A DNA stretch of 64,000 nucleotides from [Clostridium] celerecrescens 18A (GTDB taxonomy: Bacteria; Bacillota; Clostridia; Lachnospirales; Lachnospiraceae): the NCBI RefSeq assembly GCF_002797975.1, contig NZ_PGET01000001.1:3975501-4039500 (forward strand), given 5' to 3'. This document shows, piece after piece, positions 8,675 to 24,519 of the stretch (position 1 is its first letter; each line of letters opens with the position of its first letter). The notes beneath the pieces were generated by a model. It was not told the origin of the DNA, did no database searches, and worked only from the letters and a program-made list of their open reading frames with translations. The position numbers and the translations under genes were made by a program.

Positions 8675-9955
8675 TTATATTGACTTTAAATATTGATCAA
8701 TGACAAGAAGTGTGTTTTCAATATCCTGATGAGTATGAGCATAAGAAAAGAACATTGCCTCAAATTGAGCAGGTGCTATATATACTCCATGTTCTAACAT
8801 AAATCTAAAATATCTTGCATATTCCTTCGTATCTGCCATCTTTGCTGTCTCATAATCCGTAACCTTAGAATTTGCAAAGAAAAAACACGCTAATGAACCT
8901 ATCCCAGTCACTTGATACTTCATATGATACCTACCAAATAACGTATTTACTGTATTCCTAAAATACTCTCCAAGATCATTAATCTTAGTATAAACCTCCG
9001 GATGTTCCTTCAAATACTTAAGCTGAGCCATACCTGCTGCCATAGCTACCGGGTTCCCACTTAAAGTTCCTGCTTGATATACCGGACCAACTGGTGCCAC
9101 CATTTCCATAATTTCCCTTCGTCCACCATAGCACCCCACAGGCATACCACCACCAATAATTTTTCCAAATGTTGCTAAGTCTGGCAGGATATTATAGTAA
9201 CCTTGTGCTCCGCTTAAAGAAAGTCGGAAACCTGTGATTACTTCGTCAAAAATCAGAAGTGTTTTATGTTTCGTACATAATTCTCTTAGACCTTGCAAAA
9301 ATCCCTCTTGTGGTAATACAACCCCCATATTAGCAGCCACCGGTTCTACAATAACTGCAGCGATTTCATCCTTATTCCGCTCAAATAACTCAATAACGCT
9401 ATCCAGATCGTTATACTTTGCTTGTAATGTGTCTTTTACAATATTACCTGGAACTCCCAAACTGTCCGGAATTCCAGCAGCCATTACTCCAGACCCTGCT
9501 TTTACTAATAAACCATCGCTATGACCATGATAGCAGCCTTCAAATTTAATAATTTTACTTCTTCTTGTATATCCTCTTGCAGCTCGAATGGCACTCATTA
9601 CTGCTTCTGTTCCTGAGTTTACCATTCGTACCATTTCAAAGCATGGAACAATTTCACACAATAGTTCTGCCATTTCAACTTCAACTTCTGTAGCAGCGCC
9701 ATAGCTTAAACCTTTTTGTGCTGCTTCTATCACTGCCATTCGGATAACTTCATGATTATGACCTAGAATCATCGGCCCCCATGAATTTATATAATCAATA
9801 TATTTATTTCCATCCACATCATAGATATATGCCCCATTTGCCGACTCAATAAAACGCGGACTACCGCCGACTGATAAAAATGCTCTTACCGGGCTATTTA
9901 CTCCACCTGGAAGGTGTTTTACTGCCCGTTCAAATAATTGTTCTGATTTAGTCAT
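8675..9955 (-). CDS. hemL: glutamate-1-semialdehyde 2,1-aminomutase
   Basis: PLP enzyme converting glutamate-1-semialdehyde to 5-aminolevulinate, step two of the C5 tetrapyrrole route. The 426 residues match the family. The PLP Lys265 sits in ATFGKIIGGGMPVG, Asp237 in IFDEVITGFR, and the substrate loop in GAYIYDVDGNKYIDY. Its ATG overlaps by one base (TAATG) the stop codon of the hemB remnant, a sign of former translational coupling. It is the last gene of the hem operon and uses the HemA product. No terminator is visible before the MFS remnant. Confidence 0.97.
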   Translation of the reverse strand: MTKSEQLFERAVKHLPGGVNSPVRAFLSVGGSPRFIESANGAYIYDVDGNKYIDYINSWGPMILGHNHEVIRMAVIEAAQKGLSYGAATEVEVEMAELLCEIVPCFEMVRMVNSGTEAVMSAIRAARGYTRRSKIIKFEGCYHGHSDGLLVKAGSGVMAAGIPDSLGVPGNIVKDTLQAKYNDLDSVIELFERNKDEIAAVIVEPVAANMGVVLPQEGFLQGLRELCTKHKTLLIFDEVITGFRLSLSGAQGYYNILPDLATFGKIIGGGMPVGCYGGRREIMEMVAPVGPVYQAGTLSGNPVAMAAGMAQLKYLKEHPEVYTKINDLGEYFRNTVNTLFGRYHMKYQVTGIGSLACFFFANSKVTDYETAKMADTKEYARYFRFMLEHGVYIAPAQFEAMFFSYAHTHQDIENTLLVIDQYLKSI

Positions 9956-10067
9956 TAACCAATTCTCCCATCCTTTATAAATTTGGCAAGTTCTTTTCCA
10001 TAGTTTATTGCCATGTACGAATCAGTGGATTTGTTCTTAATATTCTCGGACGTATTAATAATTCCAT
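9955..10067 (-). pseudogene. hemB: hemB reduced to its two ends
   Basis: After the hemD stop an ATG opens MELLIRPRILRTNPLIRTW, the conserved N-terminus of porphobilinogen synthase, and then hits a stop. In another frame the following bases read NYGKELAKFIKDGRIG and a stop, which fits the conserved C-terminus (xYYAKExAxWL type) and ends exactly at hemL. About 35 of some 320 codons remain, so an internal deletion has removed the catalytic core. The operon therefore lacks this step here; a working hemB must be elsewhere or the pathway is broken. Confidence 0.75.
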
Positions 10068-10094
10068 AACTCACTCTTCCAAGCTTCCAATCCC

Positions 10095-11588
10095 TTACGA
10101 TCCCCTCATATTTATTTCTATAACCCTTTCAATTAAACTATCAATGGTAGCCTCTTTTGCAACTGAAATTTTCATTCCATACAATGCTGCTTCTCTCGCC
10201 GTCAGATCACCAATACAAACTGCCTGAACCTTATGAAAATCCATATCCTTCATTGTTTTGACAAAGCTGCGAACTGTTGAAGCACTTGTAAATGTTACAA
10301 TATCTGTTTCCCCGATACATACTTGTTCATTTTCTTCATAAATTATATCGTACACTGGAACAGCCTTCCTATGAACATTTGTAGTAGACAAATAATTGGC
10401 AAGTTCACTGTCTGTTTCATTAGGCATTAATACAAGCACTTTATCTTCCGGCTGGGCCATTGCTGCAATTCCTTTTCCCAGTTCCATTCCATAGTATTTC
10501 TTCGGCATATAGGTTACACGAATACCTCTTTTCTCTATTGCCCTGCGGGTAGAAGGTCCTACTGCTCCAAAATTACAGTTCCATAGGGTTCGAATGTCTA
10601 TCTGCTGTTGCCATAAACTATCAAAAAATATATCTACAGCCACTTCACTTCCAAACAGAATCCATTTATAATCCTTGATTGTATTAAGTACCTCTATCAA
10701 TTGGGTGTTATCCAGAATTGGTTTTGTAGAAGTTCCTGATAGCATGACTACCTCTGCTCCAAGATCATATAGCTTTGTTGCCAGAGAGGATACCTTATCT
10801 TTTGGCCTTGTTACAACCACTCTTGCTCCGCTAAGTAATCTCTTCTCTGCCCAAGCAAAGGTTTGAGAAAGTGAACACACTTTACCTACTACAATAATTC
10901 CAGGTGTTCCTATGTTCTGCTTTATAGCTTCCTCTGGCAAAGCAGCAATAGTTGCAATCACATTTCTCTGCTTTGCTGTTGTACCACGTTCTAATATTGC
11001 TGCAGGAGTCGTTTGATCCATACCTGCTTCTATTAAACCTCTGCAAATATCAGGTAATGCAGCAACCCCCATCAAAAACACGAGTGTTGTTTCTCCAAGC
11101 GCTGCTAAACTTTTATAATCTATGGATTCCTGGCATCCTTTCTTTCTATGTCCGGTAATAATATGCAAAGAGGAGGTAAAATCACGATGAGTCACCGGTA
11201 TCCCCGCATAGGCAGGTACAGAGATTGCAGATGTAATACCTGGTACAATCTCATAAGGAACACCATGTTCACAAAGTAACTCAAGCTCCTCTCCCCCTCG
11301 GCCAAATAAGAAAGGATCACCGCCTTTTAGCCTTACTACTCTTTTTCCTTCTAAAGCCTCTTCTAACAGAATTTCATTAATACGTTCTTGTACTACCGTA
11401 TGATTTCCTGAATATTTCCCAACATTTATCTTCTTAGCAGACTTTGGTATCATTTGAAGAATTCCTTGTCCAACCAACTGATCATATACCACTACTTCCG
11501 CTTGCTCTAAAACATTTTTCCCTTTTATCGTAAGCAATCCAGGATCCGATGGTCCCGCTCCAACTAACCACACTTTTCCTTCCATCAT
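10095..11588 (-). CDS. uroporphyrinogen-III C-methyltransferase / uroporphyrinogen-III synthase fusion
   Basis: A bifunctional protein of 497 residues. Residues 1 to about 245 are SUMT (CobA), which methylates uroporphyrinogen III to precorrin-2 using SAM: VWLVGAGPSDPGLLTIKG (6-23), VRLKGGDPFLFGRGGEE, and VPGITSAISVPAYAGIPVTHR. From about 255 to the end is HemD, which closes hydroxymethylbilane to uroporphyrinogen III; HemD is poorly conserved but VVVTRPKD, TFTSASTVRSF and the final KEATIDSLIE are typical. The fusion order is common in Clostridia (often labelled cobA/hemD). The start codon overlaps the hemC stop by four bases. It directs the pathway to siroheme or corrinoids rather than heme. 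Confidence 0.93.
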   Translation of the reverse strand: MMEGKVWLVGAGPSDPGLLTIKGKNVLEQAEVVVYDQLVGQGILQMIPKSAKKINVGKYSGNHTVVQERINEILLEEALEGKRVVRLKGGDPFLFGRGGEELELLCEHGVPYEIVPGITSAISVPAYAGIPVTHRDFTSSLHIITGHRKKGCQESIDYKSLAALGETTLVFLMGVAALPDICRGLIEAGMDQTTPAAILERGTTAKQRNVIATIAALPEEAIKQNIGTPGIIVVGKVCSLSQTFAWAEKRLLSGARVVVTRPKDKVSSLATKLYDLGAEVVMLSGTSTKPILDNTQLIEVLNTIKDYKWILFGSEVAVDIFFDSLWQQQIDIRTLWNCNFGAVGPSTRRAIEKRGIRVTYMPKKYYGMELGKGIAAMAQPEDKVLVLMPNETDSELANYLSTTNVHRKAVPVYDIIYEENEQVCIGETDIVTFTSASTVRSFVKTMKDMDFHKVQAVCIGDLTAREAALYGMKISVAKEATIDSLIERVIEINMRGS

Positions 11589-14395: not shown

Positions 14396-15298
14396 CTACA
14401 ATAAACGATCGAAGATTTCTGCATACTTATATTTTTTTACCAGATCAATGAATTCTTCCATTTGCTTTGATATAAATTTGTTTTTATGATATACAATACT
14501 AAAGGAGCGATTCCATGTAGTATCTCTATTCTTAATTACGACGATCCTGCCATTTTCAATCTGCTCTTTTGCAAGTCGAATGGATAGTACAGCCAAGCAA
14601 TGATTATCTATCACAGATCGGATCATTGCTGTTGGACAATTTGCAACCATGCTAATATTTATGGATACACCCTGTTCCTTTAAATAATTTTCAAATAGCT
14701 CTCGTGTTCCACTGCCTTCTTCTCGCATTACAAATTTTTCTCCGGCCAGATCCTTAGATGTAAAGCTCTTTTTCTTTGCAAATGGGTGATTCGCACTACA
14801 TACTAAAACCAAGTAATCGTCTACAGCAGGTATCGTCACTAAATCCGGACTCTTTACTCTGCCCTCTACAAGACCAATATCTAACTCAGAATTCAATATC
14901 TTCTCTTCGATATGATGTGTATTGTTTATGTAGGAATAGATTTCAACTTCGTTATTTAACTCTTGATATGAATTCAATATATCACTTGTTAGACAGCTTC
15001 CTACTGTAATCGTTGAACCAACTTTAAGCTTTTGATACCCTGTTGCTTCAAACATTTTACTTTCTAAATAATCAAATTGTTCTACCACCTGCTTAGAATA
15101 TGAAAGCAGCTGTCTTCCCTTTTCTGTTATATATAGCTTTTTCGATAACCGTTCAAACAATAGCGCCCCATAATGGTCTTCTAACTCCTTAATTGCTTGA
15201 CTTACGGTTGGCTGGGATACATAAAACTTAGCTGCAGCAATGCTCATCTTCCCACTTTGTGCTACTTCATTAAATATTCTCAAATGACGTATCGTCAT
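14396..15298 (-). CDS. LysR-family transcriptional regulator of the siroheme/sulfite genes
   Basis: DNA-binding regulator of 300 residues. The N-terminal winged helix-turn-helix (about 1-60: MTIRHLRIFNEVAQSGKMSI, then YVSQPTVSQAIKELE) is standard LysR; the rest is the two-lobe effector domain (KLKVGSTITVGSCLTSDIL onward). It resembles the CysL/CysB-like branch, but the effector is not readable. The gene sits between the hem operon and the divergent sulfite reduction genes, and matching palindromes lie in both control regions. A joint regulon, with sulfite or a siroheme precursor as signal, is inference. GAGGTGA precedes the ATG. Confidence 0.92.
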   Translation of the reverse strand: MTIRHLRIFNEVAQSGKMSIAAAKFYVSQPTVSQAIKELEDHYGALLFERLSKKLYITEKGRQLLSYSKQVVEQFDYLESKMFEATGYQKLKVGSTITVGSCLTSDILNSYQELNNEVEIYSYINNTHHIEEKILNSELDIGLVEGRVKSPDLVTIPAVDDYLVLVCSANHPFAKKKSFTSKDLAGEKFVMREEGSGTRELFENYLKEQGVSINISMVANCPTAMIRSVIDNHCLAVLSIRLAKEQIENGRIVVIKNRDTTWNRSFSIVYHKNKFISKQMEEFIDLVKKYKYAEIFDRLL

Positions 15299-15323
15299 GG
15301 AATCACCTCAATTTTATTTTCTA

Positions 15324-15342
15324 TCATAGGTTTTACCTATGA
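15324..15342. promoter_or_regulatory. palindromic LysR box in the divergent control region
   Basis: Perfect 8-bp inverted repeat TCATAGGT-ttt-ACCTATGA, containing the T-N11-A core expected of LysR-type sites (ATAGGTTTTACCTAT). It is 26 bp before the LysR start and 86 bp before the flavoprotein start, the classic place for autoregulation plus divergent activation. Confidence 0.75.
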
Positions 15343-15427
15343 CTTGGATAAGATATTATCACTTTTATTATATTAAAACAAGTGCTATATTAAACATATG
15401 TTAAAAAATAAACAAAGGGGTGTAGCT

Positions 15428-17053
15428 GTGAAGATTTTAATTATTGGCGGCGTTGCCGCAGGTACTAAAGTTGCAGCAAAGTTAAAACGTGAAAACCGCG
15501 ACTATGACGTAACGATTCTAACCAAAAGCAAGGATATTTCCTACGCTGGTTGTGGATTGCCTTACTATGTGGGTAACGTAATCGAGCAACGGGAGCAATT
15601 AATAGTCAACACACCGGCCAGCTTTTCAGCATTAACTGGTGTCACAGTATTGACTGAAACTGAAGTTATCAATATGAACCGGGATCAAAAAACTGTAGAG
15701 GCAAAGAACCTGGCAACGAACGAACAATCTACATATTCCTATGATAAATTAGTGATTGCTTCCGGTGCAAGCCCAATAAAACCAACGATTGAGGGTGCTG
15801 ATTTAGATGGCGTATATTACATGAGAACTCCTGAAGATGCCATTGGTCTTCGCGAAGCAGTAGAAGCGGGAAAGATCAAACGTGCTGTCGTTGTAGGTGG
15901 CGGTTTTATTGGCCTGGAAGTTGCTGAGAACTTAAGCCTCCAAGGGGTGCGCGTAACTGTACTGGATATGGCAGATCACATCTTACCTGGTTTTGACCCT
16001 GAATTTGCAGAGTATGTTGAAAATCATTTGGCTGACCATAGTATTATGGCAATGACTAATACCAGATTAGAAGCAATTCTTGGTGAAGAGAAGGTTGAGA
16101 AAGTTCAAACCGGAAAACGTGCTATCAAATGTGATGCAGTAATTCTTGCAATGGGTATTCGTGCTAATACATCCTTTGCTGTAAACACTGGTCTGGAATT
16201 CATGAAAAATCAGACAATCAAGGTAAATGAATTTCTTATGACAAACGATCCTGATATCTATGCAGTTGGAGACTGTGCTTGCGTATCCAATGCATTAACC
16301 AAAGAAAGCGCCTGGTCCCCTATGGGTTCATCCGCTAATATTGAAGGACGTATAGCTGCCAGAAATATAGCCGGAGGCCGCATATCCTATCGAGGTGTAC
16401 TCGGCACCGGTGTATGCAAATTACCTGAACTTCATGTAGGAAGAACTGGTTTAACAGAAGCAGGGGCAATTGCGGCTGGCTATGATGCTGTTAGTGTTGT
16501 TACTGTAGTGGATGATAAAGCACACTACTATCCACAGGCATCTTATTTTATAGTAAAAATGATTGCCGATAAAACTACAAAGAAATTATTAGGTCTTCAA
16601 GTATTAGGTAAAGGCAGCGTTGATAAAATGATTGATATCGCAGTTACAGCTCTTACGATGAAGGCAACTTTAGAAGATATTGAGAATATGGATTTAGCGT
16701 ATGCACCACCATTCTCTACAGCTATTCATCCCTTTTCACATACGGTGAATGTTCTTTTAAATAAAATAAGTGGTGCATTTAATAGTATCACTCCAGCAGA
16801 TTACAAGGCTGGTAAGGCTGAAGGTTACAAATTAATTGATGCCTCTATAGCCCCATCCATTACAGGTGCTCCTTATATGGATTTAACAAAGGTTACCGGC
16901 AAAGTCGCGGACTATTCATTGGATGATAAACTATTACTGGCCTGTTCCAAAGGTAAAAGAGCCTATTTATTACAAAATCGTCTGAAACACTTTGGATATA
17001 CAAATACTTTGGTTCTTGAAGGTGGATCTATATTTAATTCAATTGAGTTATAG
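15428..17053 (+). CDS. CoA-disulfide-reductase-like flavoprotein with C-terminal rhodanese domain
   Basis: FAD/NAD(P)-dependent pyridine nucleotide-disulfide oxidoreductase, 541 residues. It has an N-terminal FAD motif (ILIIGGVAAGTKVAAKL), the single redox Cys in ISYAGCGLPYYVGN, an NAD motif (RAVVVGGGFIGLEVAENL), the FAD motif DIYAVGDCA and a dimerisation domain. A C-terminal rhodanese-like part follows with a possible persulfide Cys in LLACSKGKRAYLL. Relatives reduce CoA disulfide, CoA persulfide or polysulfide. Lying first in the sulfite reductase operon, it may pass electrons to that enzyme or handle persulfide; this is inference. The GTG start at 15428 is chosen because AAGGGG lies seven bases upstream; an ATG at 15398 has no such site. 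Confidence 0.9.
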   Translation: MKILIIGGVAAGTKVAAKLKRENRDYDVTILTKSKDISYAGCGLPYYVGNVIEQREQLIVNTPASFSALTGVTVLTETEVINMNRDQKTVEAKNLATNEQSTYSYDKLVIASGASPIKPTIEGADLDGVYYMRTPEDAIGLREAVEAGKIKRAVVVGGGFIGLEVAENLSLQGVRVTVLDMADHILPGFDPEFAEYVENHLADHSIMAMTNTRLEAILGEEKVEKVQTGKRAIKCDAVILAMGIRANTSFAVNTGLEFMKNQTIKVNEFLMTNDPDIYAVGDCACVSNALTKESAWSPMGSSANIEGRIAARNIAGGRISYRGVLGTGVCKLPELHVGRTGLTEAGAIAAGYDAVSVVTVVDDKAHYYPQASYFIVKMIADKTTKKLLGLQVLGKGSVDKMIDIAVTALTMKATLEDIENMDLAYAPPFSTAIHPFSHTVNVLLNKISGAFNSITPADYKAGKAEGYKLIDASIAPSITGAPYMDLTKVTGKVADYSLDDKLLLACSKGKRAYLLQNRLKHFGYTNTLVLEGGSIFNSIEL

Positions 17054-17086
17054 ATAGAAGTTAACTAATTTTACGGAGGGAAAAAC

Positions 17087-18040
17087 ATGACACAATTAAG
17101 AGTAACTGCAGAAGATGAAAAAAGAGTAAAGGCCCTTGGATTTCTTAGAAACAAGGGAACTGATAACTTTTCAGCAAGAATTATAACTGTAAATGGTAAA
17201 ATTACTGCAGCTCAGAACAAATGCTTATCTGAAGCATCTGAAATTTATGGTAACGGTATCGTTACTATGACAACAAGATTAACACTTGAATGCCAAGGCG
17301 TTCATTACGATAACATTGAGAAATTCCGTGAATATATTGCAAAGGAAGGACTTGTTACCGGTGGTACCGGTTCAAAAGTACGTCCGGTTGTATCTTGCAA
17401 AGGAACCACATGCCAATATGGTCTTATTGATACATTTGCACTTTCAGAAGAAATTCACGAACGCTTTTATAATGGTTATGCTAGCGTTAAATTACCTCAT
17501 AAATTTAAAATTGCTGTAGGTGGCTGTCCTAATAACTGTGTAAAACCAGATTTAAATGATTTAGGCATTATCGGTCAATTAATTCCTAACTATGATGAAG
17601 ATAATTGTAATGCATGTAAAAAATGTTCTGTTGTAGAATCCTGTCCTATGGCTGCTGCAACGTTGGAAGATGGTGTTCCTACGATTGATAAAGATGTCTG
17701 TAACAACTGTGGCCGTTGTGTCGGTAAATGTCATTTTGATTGCATCGAAGACGGCATAAACGGCTACAAGATTTACATAGGTGGCAGATGGGGTAAAAAA
17801 GTAGCACACGGAATTTCTCTAGATCGTGTAATCACCAGCAAAAAGGAAGCTCTGGCAATCATTGAAAAAACAATTCTTCTCTATAGAGAACAAGGACAGA
17901 CTGGAGAACGTTTATCCGATACCATTTCTCGTATTGGTTTTGAAAATGTTCAAGCTCAGTTATACACGAATGATTTACTAGACCGCAAACAGGAAATCTT
18001 AGATGCTAAGCTTCACTTAGTCGGCGGCGCAACCTGTTAA
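17087..18040 (+). CDS. AsrC-like siroheme sulfite (or nitrite) reductase with two extra 4Fe-4S clusters
   Basis: Catalytic reductase of 317 residues. The siroheme-linked 4Fe-4S cysteines are C104 and C109 (SCKGTTCQYG) and C147 and C151 (GGCPNNCVKPDLNDLG). A ferredoxin insert follows with two CxxCxxCxxxxxC/CxxCxxCxxxC sets (C174-C186 and C205-C215). This order is that of anaerobic sulfite reductase subunit C. It should reduce sulfite to sulfide in six electrons in the cytoplasm. AsrA and AsrB, the usual electron-supplying subunits, are not in the window; the preceding flavoprotein gene may replace them. ACGGAGGG precedes the start. The hem genes across the regulator supply its siroheme. Confidence 0.9.
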   Translation: MTQLRVTAEDEKRVKALGFLRNKGTDNFSARIITVNGKITAAQNKCLSEASEIYGNGIVTMTTRLTLECQGVHYDNIEKFREYIAKEGLVTGGTGSKVRPVVSCKGTTCQYGLIDTFALSEEIHERFYNGYASVKLPHKFKIAVGGCPNNCVKPDLNDLGIIGQLIPNYDEDNCNACKKCSVVESCPMAAATLEDGVPTIDKDVCNNCGRCVGKCHFDCIEDGINGYKIYIGGRWGKKVAHGISLDRVITSKKEALAIIEKTILLYREQGQTGERLSDTISRIGFENVQAQLYTNDLLDRKQEILDAKLHLVGGATC

Positions 18041-18051
18041 TATAAGCTTTA

Positions 18052-18089
18052 TAATAACCGAATAGAGTAAAAGCTCTATCGGTTATTAT
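18052..18089 (+). terminator. hairpin after the sulfite reductase gene
   Basis: AATAACCGAATAGAG and CTCTATCGGTTATT pair over 14 bp with one bulged A; the following bases (ATTATTTC) are only a poor U-tract. Possibly a partial terminator or mRNA-stabilising end between the reductase and the YeiH gene. Confidence 0.55.
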
Positions 18090-18138
18090 TTCGGGCTTTA
18101 TTGTTAAAAATTTAACTACATTTGAGGGGACATTACAA

Positions 18139-19176
18139 ATGATGAACAAAAAATCTTACATAGCTATTGGGACCTGCGTTGTTATTGCAATTATAGCAAC
18201 TTATCTTGGAAAACTTCAAAATATTATTGGTGCACCAATGATTGGTCTATTTATCGGTATGCTTCTTGTAAACATCTTACCTAGCGTAGACAAAGACTTT
18301 AAAAAAGGTACCACTTTTGCAGGTAAAAAGTGCTTGAACTTAGGTATCATCCTTGCAGGCGGAACACTTAATTTTGCTCAGATCTTAGGATTTGGCGCGA
18401 AAGCGCTTCCTTTAATCTTTATAAACATCTGTTTATCCTTTACAGTAGCTTATTTCGTTGGCAAACAATTAAAACAATCCTGGAATACCTGTACTTTAGT
18501 AGGTGGAGGAACTTGTATCTGTGGCGGTACAGCCATTGCTACTCTCGCTTCTATTATTAAAGCAAAGGAAACTGAAATTGCTTACGCTATGACAGCGATC
18601 TTCCTATTTGATATATTGGCAGCTCTGGTTTACCCATACTTAGCAGGTGAACTTAATTTAACTTCCAATCAATTTGGATTCCTTGCAGGCACTGCAATCA
18701 ATGATACATCAAGTGTTGCAGCATCAGAAGCCACATATAATGCTATAAATGGTTTAGACTTAAATCTGGCAATTACTGTGAAGCTTACACGTACTACTAT
18801 GCTCATAGCTTTAGCAGTGATCTTTACTATAATCACTGTTCGTAAACAGTCTAAGAACAATGCTACAAATGCGGAGCAAACAAGTATTTCAAAAACTGTA
18901 TTAAAGGTATTCCCATGGTTTATCCTTGGCTTTTTAATAATGGCAGTTTTAAATACAATGGGGTTATTCGATTTAGTTAACGGATTAGATAAATACTTAA
19001 AAGCCGGTTATAAGTTATTTATTACCATTGCATTAGCAGGCGTGGGATTCAAGATTAAATTCAAAGATTTACTAACGAAAGGTATTAAACCTATTATTCT
19101 TGGTGGATGCACTTGGCTGGCTGTTGCTGCTTCCTCTATGACATTTATTCATTTGTTTGCAGGATTTATTGGTTAA
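18139..19176 (+). CDS. YeiH-family (UPF0324) membrane protein, putative sulfur-oxyanion transporter
   Basis: Integral membrane protein of 345 residues with about ten predicted helices. Family hallmarks include GAPMIGLFIGMLLVNILP near the N-terminus, the Gly/Cys-rich loop LVGGGTCICGGTAIATLA (about 121-138) and FLAGTAINDTSSVAA. UPF0324 members are labelled 'putative sulfate exporter' without proof. Its place between a siroheme sulfite reductase and the siroheme chelatase gene suggests movement of sulfite, sulfate or a related anion, which is inference. TTGAGGGG precedes two ATG codons. Confidence 0.88.
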   Translation: MMNKKSYIAIGTCVVIAIIATYLGKLQNIIGAPMIGLFIGMLLVNILPSVDKDFKKGTTFAGKKCLNLGIILAGGTLNFAQILGFGAKALPLIFINICLSFTVAYFVGKQLKQSWNTCTLVGGGTCICGGTAIATLASIIKAKETEIAYAMTAIFLFDILAALVYPYLAGELNLTSNQFGFLAGTAINDTSSVAASEATYNAINGLDLNLAITVKLTRTTMLIALAVIFTIITVRKQSKNNATNAEQTSISKTVLKVFPWFILGFLIMAVLNTMGLFDLVNGLDKYLKAGYKLFITIALAGVGFKIKFKDLLTKGIKPIILGGCTWLAVAASSMTFIHLFAGFIG

Positions 19177-19215
19177 TATAAAAAGACATTTCAAGAGGAA
19201 AGGAGCCCTATCACT

Positions 19216-20010
19216 ATGGATCTGCATCAACCAAAAAAAGCAATTCTGATTGTAAGTTATGGTACAAATTCTTTAAGTACCGGTAATAATTTTATCTTAG
19301 CACTAGAAAAACAATTAACTTCAGCCTTACAAGACTATGCTGTATATCCAGCAATCATTAGCTTTGGACAGGATAAGGATTCCACGGGACTGCCTTTTCT
19401 CTTTAAAGTGCTGGAACAGCTATATTATAATAAAATAACTACACTTTTTATCCTGCCAACATTCCTTCTGCCTGGTCATAGTTTTCTTAAAATGCAACAA
19501 ACTCTGGCTGATCATCAACATTTATTTAATGAAATCAACATTTGCCCACCATTACTGGCTGCAAAAGGATGCTATGGCCCAATTTCCACTTCTCTTGCAG
19601 CCTTATATCCAGTTCACAATGATGATGAGGTGATTGTATTCTTAGGGCATGGGAGTTCCCACTCATCCGGTATTTATTACAATGAACTTGAAACTTATTT
19701 TCATAATAATCATCACATCAATTATTATGTGTTAACTCTTGATTTTCTTTCGGATATAGGTAACTTTATCGCCATGTTACATAAAAGAAGTATAAAACAT
19801 ATATGGCTAATTCCATTATTAATGCTTGCCGGTTATCACGTTTTTCACGACATGGCCGGCAAGCATCAGGATTCTTTATATTCTGTTTTAACTGCAGCAG
19901 GTTTCAAAGTTGACTGTGTTCTGTCAGGTCTTGAAAACGAGCCTTCAATTCAACAGTTATTGATAGATCAGCTGCAAAAACAAATTAATAAAGATAATTT
20001 ACTTCTTTAA
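19216..20010 (+). CDS. CbiK-type sirohydrochlorin chelatase
   Basis: Anaerobic class II chelatase of 264 residues that inserts a metal ion into sirohydrochlorin. The two metal-handling histidine regions are clear: His145 in FLGHGSSHSSG and His208/His211 in LAGYHVFHDMAGKH, and the first strand AILIVSYGTN is typical. CbiK is named for cobalt insertion in cobalamin synthesis, but no cobalamin genes are here and the neighbours need siroheme, so iron insertion is the likelier role (inference). The GGAAAGGAG site is strong. Last gene of the divergent operon. Confidence 0.88.
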   Translation: MDLHQPKKAILIVSYGTNSLSTGNNFILALEKQLTSALQDYAVYPAIISFGQDKDSTGLPFLFKVLEQLYYNKITTLFILPTFLLPGHSFLKMQQTLADHQHLFNEINICPPLLAAKGCYGPISTSLAALYPVHNDDEVIVFLGHGSSHSSGIYYNELETYFHNNHHINYYVLTLDFLSDIGNFIAMLHKRSIKHIWLIPLLMLAGYHVFHDMAGKHQDSLYSVLTAAGFKVDCVLSGLENEPSIQQLLIDQLQKQINKDNLLL

Positions 20011-20264: not shown

Positions 20265-21524
20265 TTATAAAAAAGATATTAAACTGCTAATTCCCACAAT
20301 AAGGGTTACCACTCCTACCAGGATACCCAATACATTCTGAATAGGAGTACTCTTATATTTGCCCATCAATTTCTCACGACTAGTTAAATAAATTAACAGG
20401 AAAACTACAATTGGAAGGAAAATTCCATTTACCGCCTGCGCTGTCATAATAATACTTACGGGTTTAAACCCGGACAAGGCAACTATAATTCCCGTTACAA
20501 GAACAATAACATTGGTATAAAAAAAACGTTTATCTTTTCTGTGCATTTCCCAGCCAAACAGACCAGATAAAACAAAAGAAACACCCAACGGAGTACCAGT
20601 GGAGGCCGAGACTCCGGCCGCAACCATTCCAATAGCTAAAAAAGGTTTTGCAAAACGTCCCAGCAGCGGCTCCAGTGAGCCTGCCATATCTGCTGCCGAA
20701 GCTACTTCAACACCGCGGATAACAGTACCTGCACTAATCATGATAGCGGCAGTAATAATACCGCCTATAATCATAGTTATAGTTGTATCAAATCTGGAAA
20801 GGGGAAGTTGTTTAGGGTCTGACCAGGTTCTCCTAGAACTTGTTGCGTGAATGAACATGTTATATGGTACTACTGTTGTACCTATCATCGCAACACATGT
20901 TAGTGCCGAGCCATGGGGTATCGATGGAATCATACCCTTAAATATTTCGCTCATATCTGGTTTTGTAATAATCATTGTTGCTGTAAACACCACGGCCATG
21001 ACTGTTACCGTAACAGACAGAAGCTTCATAAGCGTTTTAAGAATATCGTCACTGATATTTATTATTATAAGTATACAGCACCCCCATACAGCTGCAACGA
21101 TATTTGATGGTATTCCGGTTATTGAGGACACACCCATAGCAGTTCCTGTTAAGTCACCGCCCATATAGGCCATTCCACCCAGAGTAATGGAAAATGCAAT
21201 GACAGCGGCCATTATTTTACGTATAACCGGCTTGTCTCCCAAATATGACATAATCCCTTCTGCCAGGCCTGTTTGTGTAACAATTCCGAAGCGGGATGCC
21301 ATTTCCTGTAAAACAATTACGGCAATAATAGAAAACACAACAGTCCATAATAATGCGAAACCAAAGCTGGCTCCAGCCCTGGTAGCACTGGTTATGGAAC
21401 CTGGCCCCATAAAAGTACCGACAACCAAAATTCCAGGCCCCATACCCTTGAGTTTTTCTTTCAGAGAGTATTTATTGTACAGTGAATTATTAGTATTTGC
21501 TTTTGATACTTCTTTTTCTCCCAT
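20265..21524 (-). CDS. NRAMP-fold transporter without the canonical metal site
   Basis: Integral membrane protein of 419 residues with the NRAMP (SLC11) layout of about eleven helices. The metal-binding DPGN motif of helix 1 is GPGS here (40-43), so the metal-binding Asp and Asn are lost. The helix-6 Met-Pro-His motif is Val219-Pro220-Tyr221 in IGTTVVPYNMFIHATSS. True Mn/Fe NRAMPs need these residues; NRAMP-related proteins with changed sites carry other ions. Since the gene follows hydrolases for thiazoline and N-carbamoyl compounds, an organic or another ion substrate is possible (inference). GGGAGA precedes the ATG. Last gene of the operon. Confidence 0.85.
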   Translation of the reverse strand: MGEKEVSKANTNNSLYNKYSLKEKLKGMGPGILVVGTFMGPGSITSATRAGASFGFALLWTVVFSIIAVIVLQEMASRFGIVTQTGLAEGIMSYLGDKPVIRKIMAAVIAFSITLGGMAYMGGDLTGTAMGVSSITGIPSNIVAAVWGCCILIIINISDDILKTLMKLLSVTVTVMAVVFTATMIITKPDMSEIFKGMIPSIPHGSALTCVAMIGTTVVPYNMFIHATSSRRTWSDPKQLPLSRFDTTITMIIGGIITAAIMISAGTVIRGVEVASAADMAGSLEPLLGRFAKPFLAIGMVAAGVSASTGTPLGVSFVLSGLFGWEMHRKDKRFFYTNVIVLVTGIIVALSGFKPVSIIMTAQAVNGIFLPIVVFLLIYLTSREKLMGKYKSTPIQNVLGILVGVVTLIVGISSLISFL

Positions 21525-21603
21525 AGTAATCTCCCATTTTTATTCAATTTTTTGTTCTTATCAACATACGAACTCTGTATCTTCTTCTGATTGACAGACT
21601 CTT

Positions 21604-21726
21604 TCATTCACAGTTCAATATGATTTCAGGCTCTGTACAACCGAGAGCAGGTACAAGCTCACTGAGTAGAATTGCCACATAATTATCATAGATATTTTGT
21701 TCTATATTCTTAACACCTTTGTAGAT
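21604..21726 (-). pseudogene. N-terminal fragment of a cysteine desulfidase (CyuA/UPF0597) gene
   Basis: In the spacer after the ATC hydrolase stop one frame reads IEQNIYDNYVAILLSELVPA followed by LGCTEPEIIL and then a stop. The stretch ELVPALGCTEP is the N-terminal signature of the L-cysteine desulfidase / UPF0597 (YhaM, CyuA) family, which cleaves cysteine to pyruvate, sulfide and ammonia. Only about 35 of some 430 codons remain and no start codon is in frame, so it is a deletion relic. It implies that the operon once went on from cysteine to sulfide. Confidence 0.65.
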
Positions 21727-22248
21727 CTAATTATGCGCATCTTTGTTTTTCATACGGAAACAGAATGAACAGACTCCATTTTCATAAATACGTCTGTCAT
21801 GGATACATTCCAAATCTTCGCTGTAACCTTTTGCAATAGCTGGATCGATAACGTCACAATACAGCTTTCCGTATTCTTCCATTCCATCTTTAATCCATTG
21901 TTCCGCAAATCCGCACTGAGTAAAGAGTTGCTCCACCTGATTGTCTCCATATGTATTTTCGGCGGTAAAATCATCACTTCTGCCCATATCATAGTTAGGT
22001 AGATAATTGAAAGCATCAATCGTACAGCCTTTTGCTTTTGCCCTCTCAGCAATGTTTCGTCCCCGCTCTTCACCAAAAGCCCAAACTCCATCTCTAATTG
22101 CCTGTTCTCCTTCTTCGCCGAATTTTTCAACTACCTCTTTTGCGAGGTGTGCAAACAACCGGCAGAATAAAGTAGCCCAGGAAACCGGTTCCTTACTCTC
22201 ATTGTCCTTCATGCTTACTGCTCCCTCTGTTCTTTCAATGTTTTCCAT
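21727..22248 (-). CDS. L-2-amino-thiazoline-4-carboxylate (ATC) hydrolase family protein
   Basis: Cytoplasmic protein of 173 residues of the ATC hydrolase family. The founding Pseudomonas enzyme opens the ring of L-2-amino-thiazoline-4-carboxylate to N-carbamoyl-L-cysteine. Seen here: the helical N-terminal part WATLFCRLFAHLAKEVVEKFGEEGEQAIRDGV (split in two helices), GRNIAERAKAKG, and the C-terminal CDVIDPAIAKGY to CSFCFRMKN segment. The family is broad and many members have no proven substrate, but the next gene is an N-carbamoyl amino acid hydrolase, the exact second enzyme of the ATC route. The start at 22248 lies nine bases after GAGGAGG; an upstream ATG at 22266 has none. Confidence 0.8.
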   Translation of the reverse strand: MENIERTEGAVSMKDNESKEPVSWATLFCRLFAHLAKEVVEKFGEEGEQAIRDGVWAFGEERGRNIAERAKAKGCTIDAFNYLPNYDMGRSDDFTAENTYGDNQVEQLFTQCGFAEQWIKDGMEEYGKLYCDVIDPAIAKGYSEDLECIHDRRIYENGVCSFCFRMKNKDAHN

Positions 22249-22316
22249 AGTTAATTTCCTCCTCAATCTTTTTTTGTTTATTAAATTTCATCTATCAAGA
22301 AATGCATAGCATTTTC

Positions 22317-23549
22317 TTACGACTTACTGTCCAAAGCAAGTATAGTTTGATACAATACATCCGTTCCTTTTGCAAGTGCCTCGGGAAAAACGTACTCCTC
22401 AGGATTATGGGTAATGCCTTTGATGCATGGGACAAACAGCATGGCAGCCGGCCAACGTGCAGAAAGTATCATTGCATCGTGCCCTGCTCCACTGTTCATA
22501 GTGCGGTAGGAATACCCTAACTGCTCACAGCTTTCCTGAATCATGCTGCACAGATGCCCGTCCATTTCAATTGGATCTTGACGGGAATCAATGCGAACCT
22601 CAATATCCACATTGCATTCTTTTGCCACTTCTATGGCCTTTTGCTGAATGAAGGCAGTCAATTCATCAATATTTGACATCTTACCTGAACGTAGATCTAC
22701 TGTAAAAATGCATTTTGATGGAATGCAGTTTGAAGAACCCGGCAACAAATCCAACTTTCCAATAGTGGCGGTAGCACTATGCGCATAATGCTGGGTAGTG
22801 TGACACGCAATGTGATTCACTAAACGGCATGCACCTGAGGCTGCATCCTGCCTTAGAGGCATGGGAACCGTTCCTGCATGACCTGCAAAGCCGGTGACCG
22901 TTACCGTAAGCCAGGAAATTGCAACGATGTTCTCAACAATGCCAATGTCAATGTTCTCAGTTTCAAGAACCGGCCCCTGCTCATCATGCAATTCTATAAA
23001 CGCTAAGATTTCTTCGCTTTCCCTATATGGCGGACAGACATTGGCAGGCAGATAAGTATGATTGACATCCCTTAAAGTGTTCCCTTCTGTATCTCGGATT
23101 GCATCCAATTCTTTCTCACCGAACACACCGGTTATAAACTTGCTGCCTAAAAGTACCTGCCCAAAACGTGTACCTTCCTCTTCCATAGTTCCGATTACCT
23201 CAAAAGTATGCCGCAGAGTTATCCCCTTTTCCTTGATCATCCTGACCGCCTCCAGGGCACATACCGCCCCGGCGATTCCGTCAAAAGCCCCGGCGCACCT
23301 CACCGTATCCAAATGTGAACCGGACAGAATAGCAGGTAACCCCTTCCCTGATCCTTCTAATCTGCCGTATATGTTGCCGATCCCGTCCTCTCTTACAGCC
23401 AAACCAGCTTCCTTCATACGGCTCTTAAAAAAATCAGCTCCTTGTCGGTAGACTTGTGTAAAACCAATCCTAGTTGTTCCAGCATCACATGGTTCTGAAA
23501 TACCTTTCAGACTCTCAATGTCCGACTGGATTCGCATCATATCAGCCAT
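22317..23549 (-). CDS. M20 N-carbamoyl-L-amino acid hydrolase / allantoate amidohydrolase-type enzyme
   Basis: Zinc or manganese amidohydrolase of 410 residues, HyuC/AmaB/AllC group. The two-metal ligands are His79 (SGSHLDTV), Asp90 (GAFDGIAG), Glu124/125 (TMEEEGTRFG), His188 (IELHDEQGP) and His381 (ITHNPEEY); a lid domain holds FAGHAGTVPM. Such enzymes split N-carbamoyl amino acids to the amino acid, CO2 and ammonia. With the ATC hydrolase next in the operon, N-carbamoyl-L-cysteine is the likely substrate (inference); allantoate or another ureido acid is the alternative. First gene of the operon, AGGAGG before the ATG, divergent from the IclR regulator. Confidence 0.9.
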   Translation of the reverse strand: MADMMRIQSDIESLKGISEPCDAGTTRIGFTQVYRQGADFFKSRMKEAGLAVREDGIGNIYGRLEGSGKGLPAILSGSHLDTVRCAGAFDGIAGAVCALEAVRMIKEKGITLRHTFEVIGTMEEEGTRFGQVLLGSKFITGVFGEKELDAIRDTEGNTLRDVNHTYLPANVCPPYRESEEILAFIELHDEQGPVLETENIDIGIVENIVAISWLTVTVTGFAGHAGTVPMPLRQDAASGACRLVNHIACHTTQHYAHSATATIGKLDLLPGSSNCIPSKCIFTVDLRSGKMSNIDELTAFIQQKAIEVAKECNVDIEVRIDSRQDPIEMDGHLCSMIQESCEQLGYSYRTMNSGAGHDAMILSARWPAAMLFVPCIKGITHNPEEYVFPEALAKGTDVLYQTILALDSKS

Positions 23550-23626
23550 TTATATCAACCTCCTAGATTAACTGTACTATCGTAAATTGACAATTCTTAT
23601 TTATGAGCTTATAATATCAGAAGAAA

Positions 23627-23659
23627 ACGATAATGCAATGTGAATAACGGCATTATCGT
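23627..23659. promoter_or_regulatory. 10-bp inverted repeat operator between the amidohydrolase and IclR genes
   Basis: ACGATAATGC (23627-23636) and GCATTATCGT (23650-23659) form a perfect dyad with a 13-bp spacer in the divergent intergenic region, the expected place and size for an IclR-family operator. Confidence 0.7.
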
Positions 23660-23736
23660 GTAACTATAAAATATTAGTATTAATATCTAAATACAGCCAA
23701 TCTATTTTGGCAATTATGACTGAGGGAGGGTACACT

Positions 23737-24519
23737 ATGAAAGAAGAAGTAAAAACGATTCAATCAGTACAGCGGGCAATTGACATCATAAACTGCGTTG
23801 GAGATGCAGGGCGAAAGATAAGTCTCAAAGAGATCAGCTCGAAACTGGATCTAAATATAAACACTACACGGGGACTGGCACAAACACTTCTTGCCAATGG
23901 ATTCTTATCCAGAGATGTAGAACAGGGAACTTATACCTTAGGGTATGAATTTCTGACAAAATCAAAATTGGTGTATCAACTTCAAATACAGCGTATACGA
24001 GATATTGCTCATCCCCGTATGGAGCAGATATCTGAAAAATATAATGTTTCATCCTGGCTTCAAATCAGCTTTTACAGAGATATTTATACTGTGGAAACAT
24101 TGGAAGCACCCAAAACAAGTTATTCCTATACACCCAAATCTGGTGCAAGCCTTCCATTGCATGCGTCTGCGTCAGGTAAACTGCGCATTGCTTATATGCC
24201 GGAGAATGAACGGGAAAAGGTTCTGAACACCATATATCTGGAACAATTGACTACGCATACAATTACAGATCGAAAAGAATTTGAAAATGTGATTAAGCAG
24301 GTGTATTCCCAAGGCTATGCCACTGAGTTTGAGGAAATAGATATGGGAATCAGCAGCATAGCCGTCCCTATCTTCGACACCCGGGGGGCATTAGGCGGAA
24401 CCTTAAGTATTGCAGCGCCGTCAGTTAAACTGAACCGTGTCTTTAGCAATATATTAGTCGATCTCAAAAGGGCAGGTATGTACATCACAGATGGCATTTC
24501 GAGCCGGCGAAGGATTTAG
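23737..24519 (+). CDS. IclR-family transcriptional regulator
   Basis: 260-residue regulator: an N-terminal winged helix-turn-helix (about 5-66: IQSVQRAIDIINCVGDAG, ISLKEISSKLDLNINTTRGL) and a C-terminal GAF-like effector domain (SGASLPLHASASGKLRIAYM, GYATEFEEIDMGISSIAVPI). It probably senses a substrate or product of the divergent ATC/N-carbamoyl operon and binds the dyad in the shared control region. The start at 23737 follows GGGAGGG by six bases; an ATG at 23707 has no ribosome binding site. Confidence 0.92.
   Translation: MKEEVKTIQSVQRAIDIINCVGDAGRKISLKEISSKLDLNINTTRGLAQTLLANGFLSRDVEQGTYTLGYEFLTKSKLVYQLQIQRIRDIAHPRMEQISEKYNVSSWLQISFYRDIYTVETLEAPKTSYSYTPKSGASLPLHASASGKLRIAYMPENEREKVLNTIYLEQLTTHTITDRKEFENVIKQVYSQGYATEFEEIDMGISSIAVPIFDTRGALGGTLSIAAPSVKLNRVFSNILVDLKRAGMYITDGISSRRRI

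Follow-up and report, generated by a model that had tools for sequence, protein, structure and literature searches.

A candidate operon for uptake and hydrolysis of a five-membered-ring cysteine precursor, with an NRAMP-like transporter, in [Clostridium] celerecrescens 18A

The conversion of L-2-amino-thiazoline-4-carboxylate (ATC), whose tautomer is 2-iminothiazolidine-4-carboxylate, to cysteine in Pseudomonas is known mainly from cysteine production, and its enzymes are AtcB (L-ATC hydrolase) and AtcC (N-carbamoyl-L-cysteine amidohydrolase). The hydrolase is cited as cleaving the C-S bond of the thiazoline (PMC5847659), and bacteria are described as turning ATC into cysteine via N-carbamoyl or S-carbamoyl routes (PMC10821248). 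ATC itself forms from cyanide and cystine and is presented as a marker compound of cyanide exposure (PMC9291117). Single components of other systems are also close, such as the L-cysteine desulfidase CyuA of Escherichia coli, which acts beside the transporter CyuP (PMC9040844), and the NRAMP-family protein PxpT of Corynebacterium glutamicum, which is described as needed for growth on 5-oxoproline and as its likely importer (PMC13274462). Here, we analyzed a stretch of 64,000 nucleotides from [Clostridium] celerecrescens 18A (contig NZ_PGET01000001.1, positions 3,975,501 to 4,039,500; the window), in which positions 20265 to 24519 hold an operon for an M20-family hydrolase, an ATC_hydrolase-family (PF14196) protein, a remnant of the desulfidase gene cyuA and an NRAMP-like transporter, next to a divergent gene for an IclR-family regulator. 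We consider it rather probable that this operon serves, under induction by its substrate, the uptake and hydrolysis of a cysteine precursor with a five-membered ring, most likely ATC or a very close analogue.

In the proposed pathway, the NRAMP-like protein would bring in the ring acid instead of a metal, the PF14196 enzyme would open the ring to give carbamoyl-cysteine, and the M20 enzyme would remove the carbamoyl group as CO2 and ammonia to leave cysteine. Relatives with a linked CyuA, or perhaps those with a pyridoxal phosphate (PLP) enzyme, may convert this cysteine further to pyruvate, ammonia and sulfide, and the IclR-family regulator is predicted to sense the substrate or a product via an operator of 10-13-10 bp. 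The substrate, the order of the reactions, the direction of transport and the effector of the regulator are what we infer. Likened by family and description, such a pathway would resemble that of Pseudomonas in a ring-opening enzyme of the namesake family of PF14196, a carbamoyl hydrolase and cysteine as the end product. Unlike that pathway, it comes with a linked importer of NRAMP-like, Liv-type ATP-binding cassette (ABC), SSF or DUF5058 kind, an IclR operator, and CyuA or a PLP enzyme. The likeness to E. coli CyuPA lies in a CyuA-type desulfidase that turns cysteine into pyruvate, ammonia and sulfide, but CyuP is described as importing cysteine itself (PMC9040844), whereas here a ring compound would be the source of cysteine, and only a remnant of cyuA is left at the locus. 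Among the papers listed by searches of an open-access library, we recognised none that describes an ATC pathway with a linked NRAMP-like protein. A preliminary description of this DNA had proposed uptake and breakdown of such a cysteine compound; this stays the best-supported reading, with the gene association conserved and the transporter's part sharpened to import of a ring acid, but its claim on sulfide does not hold for the whole genome.

All parts of the operon named in that description were found in the sequence. Leftward from position 23549, the reverse strand encodes the M20 enzyme (22317..23549), the PF14196 protein (21727..22248, 173 aa, counted from the likely ATG), the cyuA remnant (21629..21718) and the NRAMP-like protein (20265..21524; PF01566, E 1.3e-80), and the iclR gene diverges on the forward strand (23737..24519; PF01614, 6.3e-31; PF09339, 3.5e-10). 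The start of iclR had been placed at TTG 23707, which is probably too early, as by eye the ribosome site is better at ATG 23737. The genome holds one PF14196 gene, three carbamoylase genes above the cut-off and one NRAMP gene, so chance adjacency of the operon genes is unlikely. The four remaining genes are open, their proteins are 96-99% identical to those of a second genome of the genus (G006), and with dN/dS values against it of 0.055 (NRAMP), 0.131 (ATC), 0.182 (M20) and 0.053 (IclR) they look to be under purifying selection.

The M20 enzyme scored 386.1 bits with the hydantoinase/carbamoylase profile TIGR01879 (cut-off, 204), and residues H, D, E, H and H, which we take to be its metal ligands, were invariant in all 55 aligned rows; this alignment comprised one BLAST cluster (52 rows, L032 twice) plus the window, G152 and G304, and so not all 54 M20-bearing loci described below. 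It fell below the cut-off of the AllC equivalog (TIGR03176, 277.7 versus 597.75), and an allantoin pathway was set aside on this ground and because no supporting common neighbours were noticed. By its family, the M20 enzyme would fit the N-carbamoyl route from ATC to cysteine. The PF14196 protein also passed its curated cut-off (67.5 versus 28.1 bits), and C112, C131 and C160 were invariant in 66/66 rows. A cluster of three Cys residues is reported as common to the ATC_hydrolase domain and V4R (PMC5847659), and in our reading the invariant residues probably form that cluster. A search of PDB sequences with the PF14196 protein gave nothing below E 0.85.

To see how far this gene association is conserved, named genomes were scanned with the PF14196 alignment, and neighbours were counted within 9 kb of the ATC gene at the resulting 70 loci, hits with less than 30% query coverage or shorter than 150 bp being left out of these counts; the figures count loci, not independent events, and L116 is the same record as L008. 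Family names of neighbours come from Pfam/NCBIfam scans that covered one or a few members per family, and SDH_alpha was labelled CyuA, the Pragia protein being 46% identical to the CyuA of G152. An M20 gene is present at 54 loci, a fragment in L040 included, and lies within 300 bp at 48 of them. The other neighbours were LysR (22 loci), IclR (20), LivK (20), an arginase-family ureohydrolase (20), NRAMP (12), a Cys/Met-type PLP enzyme (9), a PAS_6 regulator (9), an SSF symporter (7), CyuA (6, not counting the broken cyuA of L040), DUF5058 (5) and glutaminase (5). The NRAMP, Liv-type ABC, SSF and DUF5058 importers are mutually exclusive and jointly occur at 44 of the 70 loci. CyuA and the PLP enzyme never overlap; M20 is present at all 15 loci with either of them, and neither is found at the 16 loci without M20. 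A lack of conservation in other genomes, which by the preliminary description would have refuted its reading, was not observed: besides these counts, there is G152, a genome of the same family as the window genome, which carries an intact M20-ATC-CyuA-NRAMP operon with a divergent IclR gene (identity to the window proteins: NRAMP 83%, ATC 86%, M20 71%, IclR 74%).

The gene order varies in other lineages, being CyuA-M20-ATC in G304 and CyuA-M20-ATC-DUF5058 in Pragia, Gilliamella, Budvicia, Cedecea and Intestinirhabdus. In the ATC tree, from which the short ATC of L040 was omitted, CyuA-linked rows stand at four separate places (Enterobacterales plus Orbaceae, G152, G304 and L070); the tree program flagged long branches in this tree as well as in the NRAMP and IclR trees. 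In Enterobacterales and Orbaceae (L009 10477-11970, L013, L015, L022 and L025), two genes follow the ATC gene, one for a DUF5058 membrane protein and one for another membrane-like protein that lacks a Pfam match; this pair is a candidate for a fourth importer type.

The transporter departs from MntH. The window protein shares the family and overall sequence with MntH-type NRAMP, but it lies below the NCBIfam MntH cut-off (NF001923, 175.2 versus 430) and shows GPGS and VPY in place of DPGN and MPH, the motifs that presumably form the metal site. The Asp, Asn and Met metal ligands are absent from all 24 rows of the ring-linked kind, with Gly at the metal-site Asp and Val at the Met; these rows comprise 13 ATC-linked, 6 pxp-linked and 3 hydantoinase-linked proteins together with L161 and L176, the last two without such a link. 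Canonical MntH rows keep both motifs in 3/3, and the row L157 shows neither pattern. In a tree of 28 rows, which is unrooted, has three long branches and leaves out the partial NRAMP of L043, the 13 ATC-linked proteins and one from G120 form a clade (support 99/99), which groups at 94/93 with two pxp-linked rows and three hydantoinase-linked ones from haloarchaea; the remaining four pxp-linked rows lie just outside this group, and canonical MntH is separate (100/100). Imino-form ATC is a thia-imino analogue of 5-oxoproline, and a switch between these substrates within NRAMP is plausible because of this resemblance. We predict from the sequences that the window protein imports a ring acid rather than a metal.

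A search of 219 genomes of the phylum gave seven further loci with E values of 1e-45 or better, and six of these supplied the pxp-linked rows; at L170 the neighbours PxpA, YcsI-type, PxpB and PxpC were confirmed by Pfam, and five more pxp loci were read by eye. PxpT and YcsG resemble the window protein in the NRAMP family, a small ring amino acid as likely substrate and a divergent regulator (GntR in C. glutamicum), as far as their accounts go (PMC13274462, PMC10448178). Unlike them, with the comparison made by description only, ATC-linked NRAMPs form their own clade and stand beside PF14196 and M20 instead of pxpABC. The window NRAMP gene is not in a pxpABC operon, the pxpA-type gene of the genome lies elsewhere, and NRAMP was not found in the flanks of about 1.5 kb of 22 pxpA loci (21 of the genus). 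On three haloarchaeal plasmids (L155 6052-11697, L156 5998-10826 and L169 4989-10678), an NRAMP gene (~37% identical) precedes the genes for hydantoinase/oxoprolinase A and B, and two of these three loci also hold a gene of racemase or maleate-isomerase type.

The region between the divergent genes carries a consensus sigma-70 promoter toward iclR (TTGACA-N17-TATAAT, 23587..23615, forward strand) and, 11 bp downstream of it, a dyad at 23627..23659 that we propose as the IclR operator. The dyad of 10-bp arms, already noted in the preliminary description, is a perfect repeat, ACGATAATGC-N13-GCATTATCGT. A perfect 10-bp repeat with a spacer of 3-25 arose in 16 of 1000 single-base shuffles of the intergenic stretch, and the dyad has no other exact match in the 5.27-Mb genome, one other site having three mismatches. 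It is unchanged in G006 and has two arm mismatches in G152, and the promoter is kept in both. A pattern built from the sites of the window, G006, G152 and Acidaminococcus was matched with up to three mismatches beside iclR at 9 of 25 IclR+ATC loci (24 distinct records), compared with one of 75 single-base-shuffled loci that reached three. Four of the nine sites, in Clostridiales 1_7_47_FAA and three Sporomusa (L038, L060, L062 and L066), are independent of the pattern. The operator fronts NRAMP at 2/3 Acidaminococcus loci and a Liv-type ABC importer at 3/3 Sporomusa loci, and the operator-linked branch of the IclR tree has modest support (81/70). Two unrelated importers thus seem to answer to a single IclR branch, so the NRAMP and Liv-type loci may well share one substrate.

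The cysteine desulfidase relic reported in the preliminary description is real. In a search of 25 genomes of the genus, the remnant was 68% identical to residues 2-38 of the intact CyuA of G152 (E 9.4e-9), 90 nt (21629-21718) can be aligned with G152 cyuA at the DNA level, and the synteny with G152, where cyuA occupies the same place between the ATC and NRAMP genes, confirms it. The G152 protein (441 aa) matches solved L-cysteine desulfidases (E 1.2e-25). What is left in the window is about the first 30 codons, with ATA instead of ATG at the codon aligned to the start; the likeness ends right after a Cys-Thr-Glu-Pro motif, a stop follows, and the remainder of the gene is deleted. The relic peptide gave one match at E 0.19 in a Pfam scan and none in NCBIfam. 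No intact frame remains, and the three conserved iron-sulfur cysteines, as given for L-cysteine desulfidase in PMC12647591, belong to the missing part. In G006, only 62 bp separates the ATC and NRAMP genes, so that even the remnant is lost. The preliminary description had held that the locus formerly released sulfide; this is right for the local copy, but the loss is only local because the genome retains two further open CyuA genes (424 and 441 aa).

Several findings weigh against the formation of cysteine from ATC by these genes. The M20 enzyme passes NF006771, named 'allantoate amidohydrolase' (PRK09290.1-5 subfamily; 417.8 versus 399), though this is the name of a subfamily and not proof of a substrate. 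No ATC racemase was noticed in the operon, in which it also differs from the Pseudomonas pathway. M20 is absent from 16 of the 70 loci, where the PF14196 protein may do other things. The Cys/Met-type PLP enzyme, presumably cysteine-degrading, lies below every cut-off of the 25 NCBIfam models shown (best, methionine gamma-lyase, 463.2 versus 666). An alternative is that the module breaks down a ureido or cyclic-amide compound without sulfur (hydantoin, allantoate, a 5-oxoproline-like ring or a cyclic guanidine), to which the nearby sulfur amino acid enzymes would be incidental. The NF006771 match is in line with it, as are the PxpABC or HyuAB genes that adjoin related NRAMPs and the ureohydrolase, which is found at 11 of the 12 NRAMP loci. 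On the other hand, CyuA or the PLP enzyme always occurs with M20, the ATC tree has its CyuA rows spread over several places, and hydantoinase was not seen among the gene clusters common to many loci, some neighbours being without identification. We regard a non-sulfur substrate as unlikely.

The transporter adds further points of this kind: its protein passes the broad Nramp_1 'divalent metal transporter' model (90.4 versus 50), the authors of the PxpT study do not exclude metal transport (PMC13274462), and Mn import has been reported for YcsG (PMC10448178). The Nramp_1 match and the report on YcsG would suit a Mn2+ importer that supplies the metal-dependent M20 enzyme or the ureohydrolase, with the ring compound entering otherwise, and the gene is the only one for NRAMP found in the genome. 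This explanation is quite unlikely in our estimate, since the metal ligands are replaced in every one of the 24 rows, a Liv-type ABC importer takes the place of NRAMP under the same kind of operator in Sporomusa, and PxpT is described as required for 5-oxoproline growth (PMC13274462). Metal supply by the NRAMP-like protein was set aside, its ligands being gone.

Returning to import of ATC or its analogue, its regulation and distribution also show weak points. The operator was not found within three mismatches at 16 of the 25 loci, including Paenibacillus and Cohnella, the local cyuA is lost, and among the 25 genomes of the genus the ATC gene occurs in just two, the window genome and G006. More widely, a PF14196 match was obtained in 42 of 397 genomes of the family, with E <1e-40 only in the window genome, G152 and G304, and E 1e-20 was passed by 4/392 genomes of the order and 5/391 of the class, the window genome included. 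This patchy spread suggests horizontal movement; a search of plasmids gave no ATC gene. The operon could be what is left of a pathway gained by horizontal transfer, in decay and without function, as the fate of cyuA in the window and G006 and the rarity in the genus would allow. Decay is seen elsewhere: in L040, from a genome of the MGBC set (mouse gut), the same operon has decayed separately, several of its genes being broken and the pieces lying in the order M20-ATC-CyuA-IclR (9380-11050). The ATC gene seems disrupted in Clostridium sp. WB02_MRS01 (P0088), whose truncated 98-aa protein shows full identity across 36% of the query before passing into unrelated sequence. For the window, the open frames of the four genes, their near identity to G006 and the conserved operator and promoter make a relic very improbable, and total decay of the operon was set aside on account of the low dN/dS.

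The ureohydrolase and glutaminase genes are superfluous in the simple scheme, which likewise speaks against it, and the NRAMP protein may belong with the ureohydrolase. In G120, a genome without an ATC match, an NRAMP gene of the ATC-linked clade (L161 7861-10378) lies beside genes for a ureohydrolase and an IclR, and the operator was not found before this NRAMP-ureohydrolase pair. The operons of the window, G006 and G152 have no ureohydrolase gene. At four loci (L008, L019, L021 and L035), the gene stands within the Liv-type operon, at L008 and L021 between two called Liv ATPase genes. In all 16 aligned ATC-linked ureohydrolases (L024 15080-16036 and 15 further loci, judged by eye), Cys replaces the first Asp of what we take to be the second metal-binding motif of arginase-family enzymes. 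In Brevibacillus massiliensis (L035 10516-11484), a glutaminase homologue directly follows the ATC gene, in the usual place of M20. Because S-carbamoyl-cysteine resembles glutamine, we speculate that ureohydrolase and glutaminase may form an S-carbamoyl-cysteine branch. As a tentative extension, the NRAMP branch could be a dedicated ATC importer feeding a modular pathway to cysteine and then to sulfide, ammonia and pyruvate in several lineages, to which the Cys-bearing ureohydrolase (in many, such as Bacillaceae, Brevibacillus, Sporomusa and Acidaminococcus) and the glutaminase (in some) would add the S-carbamoyl-cysteine route.

If uptake and hydrolysis of ATC is the true function, the ATC-to-cysteine pathway would extend to a nutrient route that spans Bacillota, reaches some Gammaproteobacteria and uses several alternative importers, and this route would be tied to a marker of cyanide exposure. 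It would also give a second predicted ring-acid substrate for NRAMP-family carriers annotated as metal transporters. The reading makes specific and cheap predictions on the substrate, the operator and the transporter. As a separate observation, a sulfur-related cluster adjoins the operon at window positions 14396-20010, comprising a LysR-like regulator (so labelled by eye and from a weak BLAST match), a CoA-disulfide-reductase-like protein of 551 aa, a siroheme-type sulfite/nitrite reductase with a ferredoxin domain, a YeiH-like transporter and a CbiK-type chelatase.

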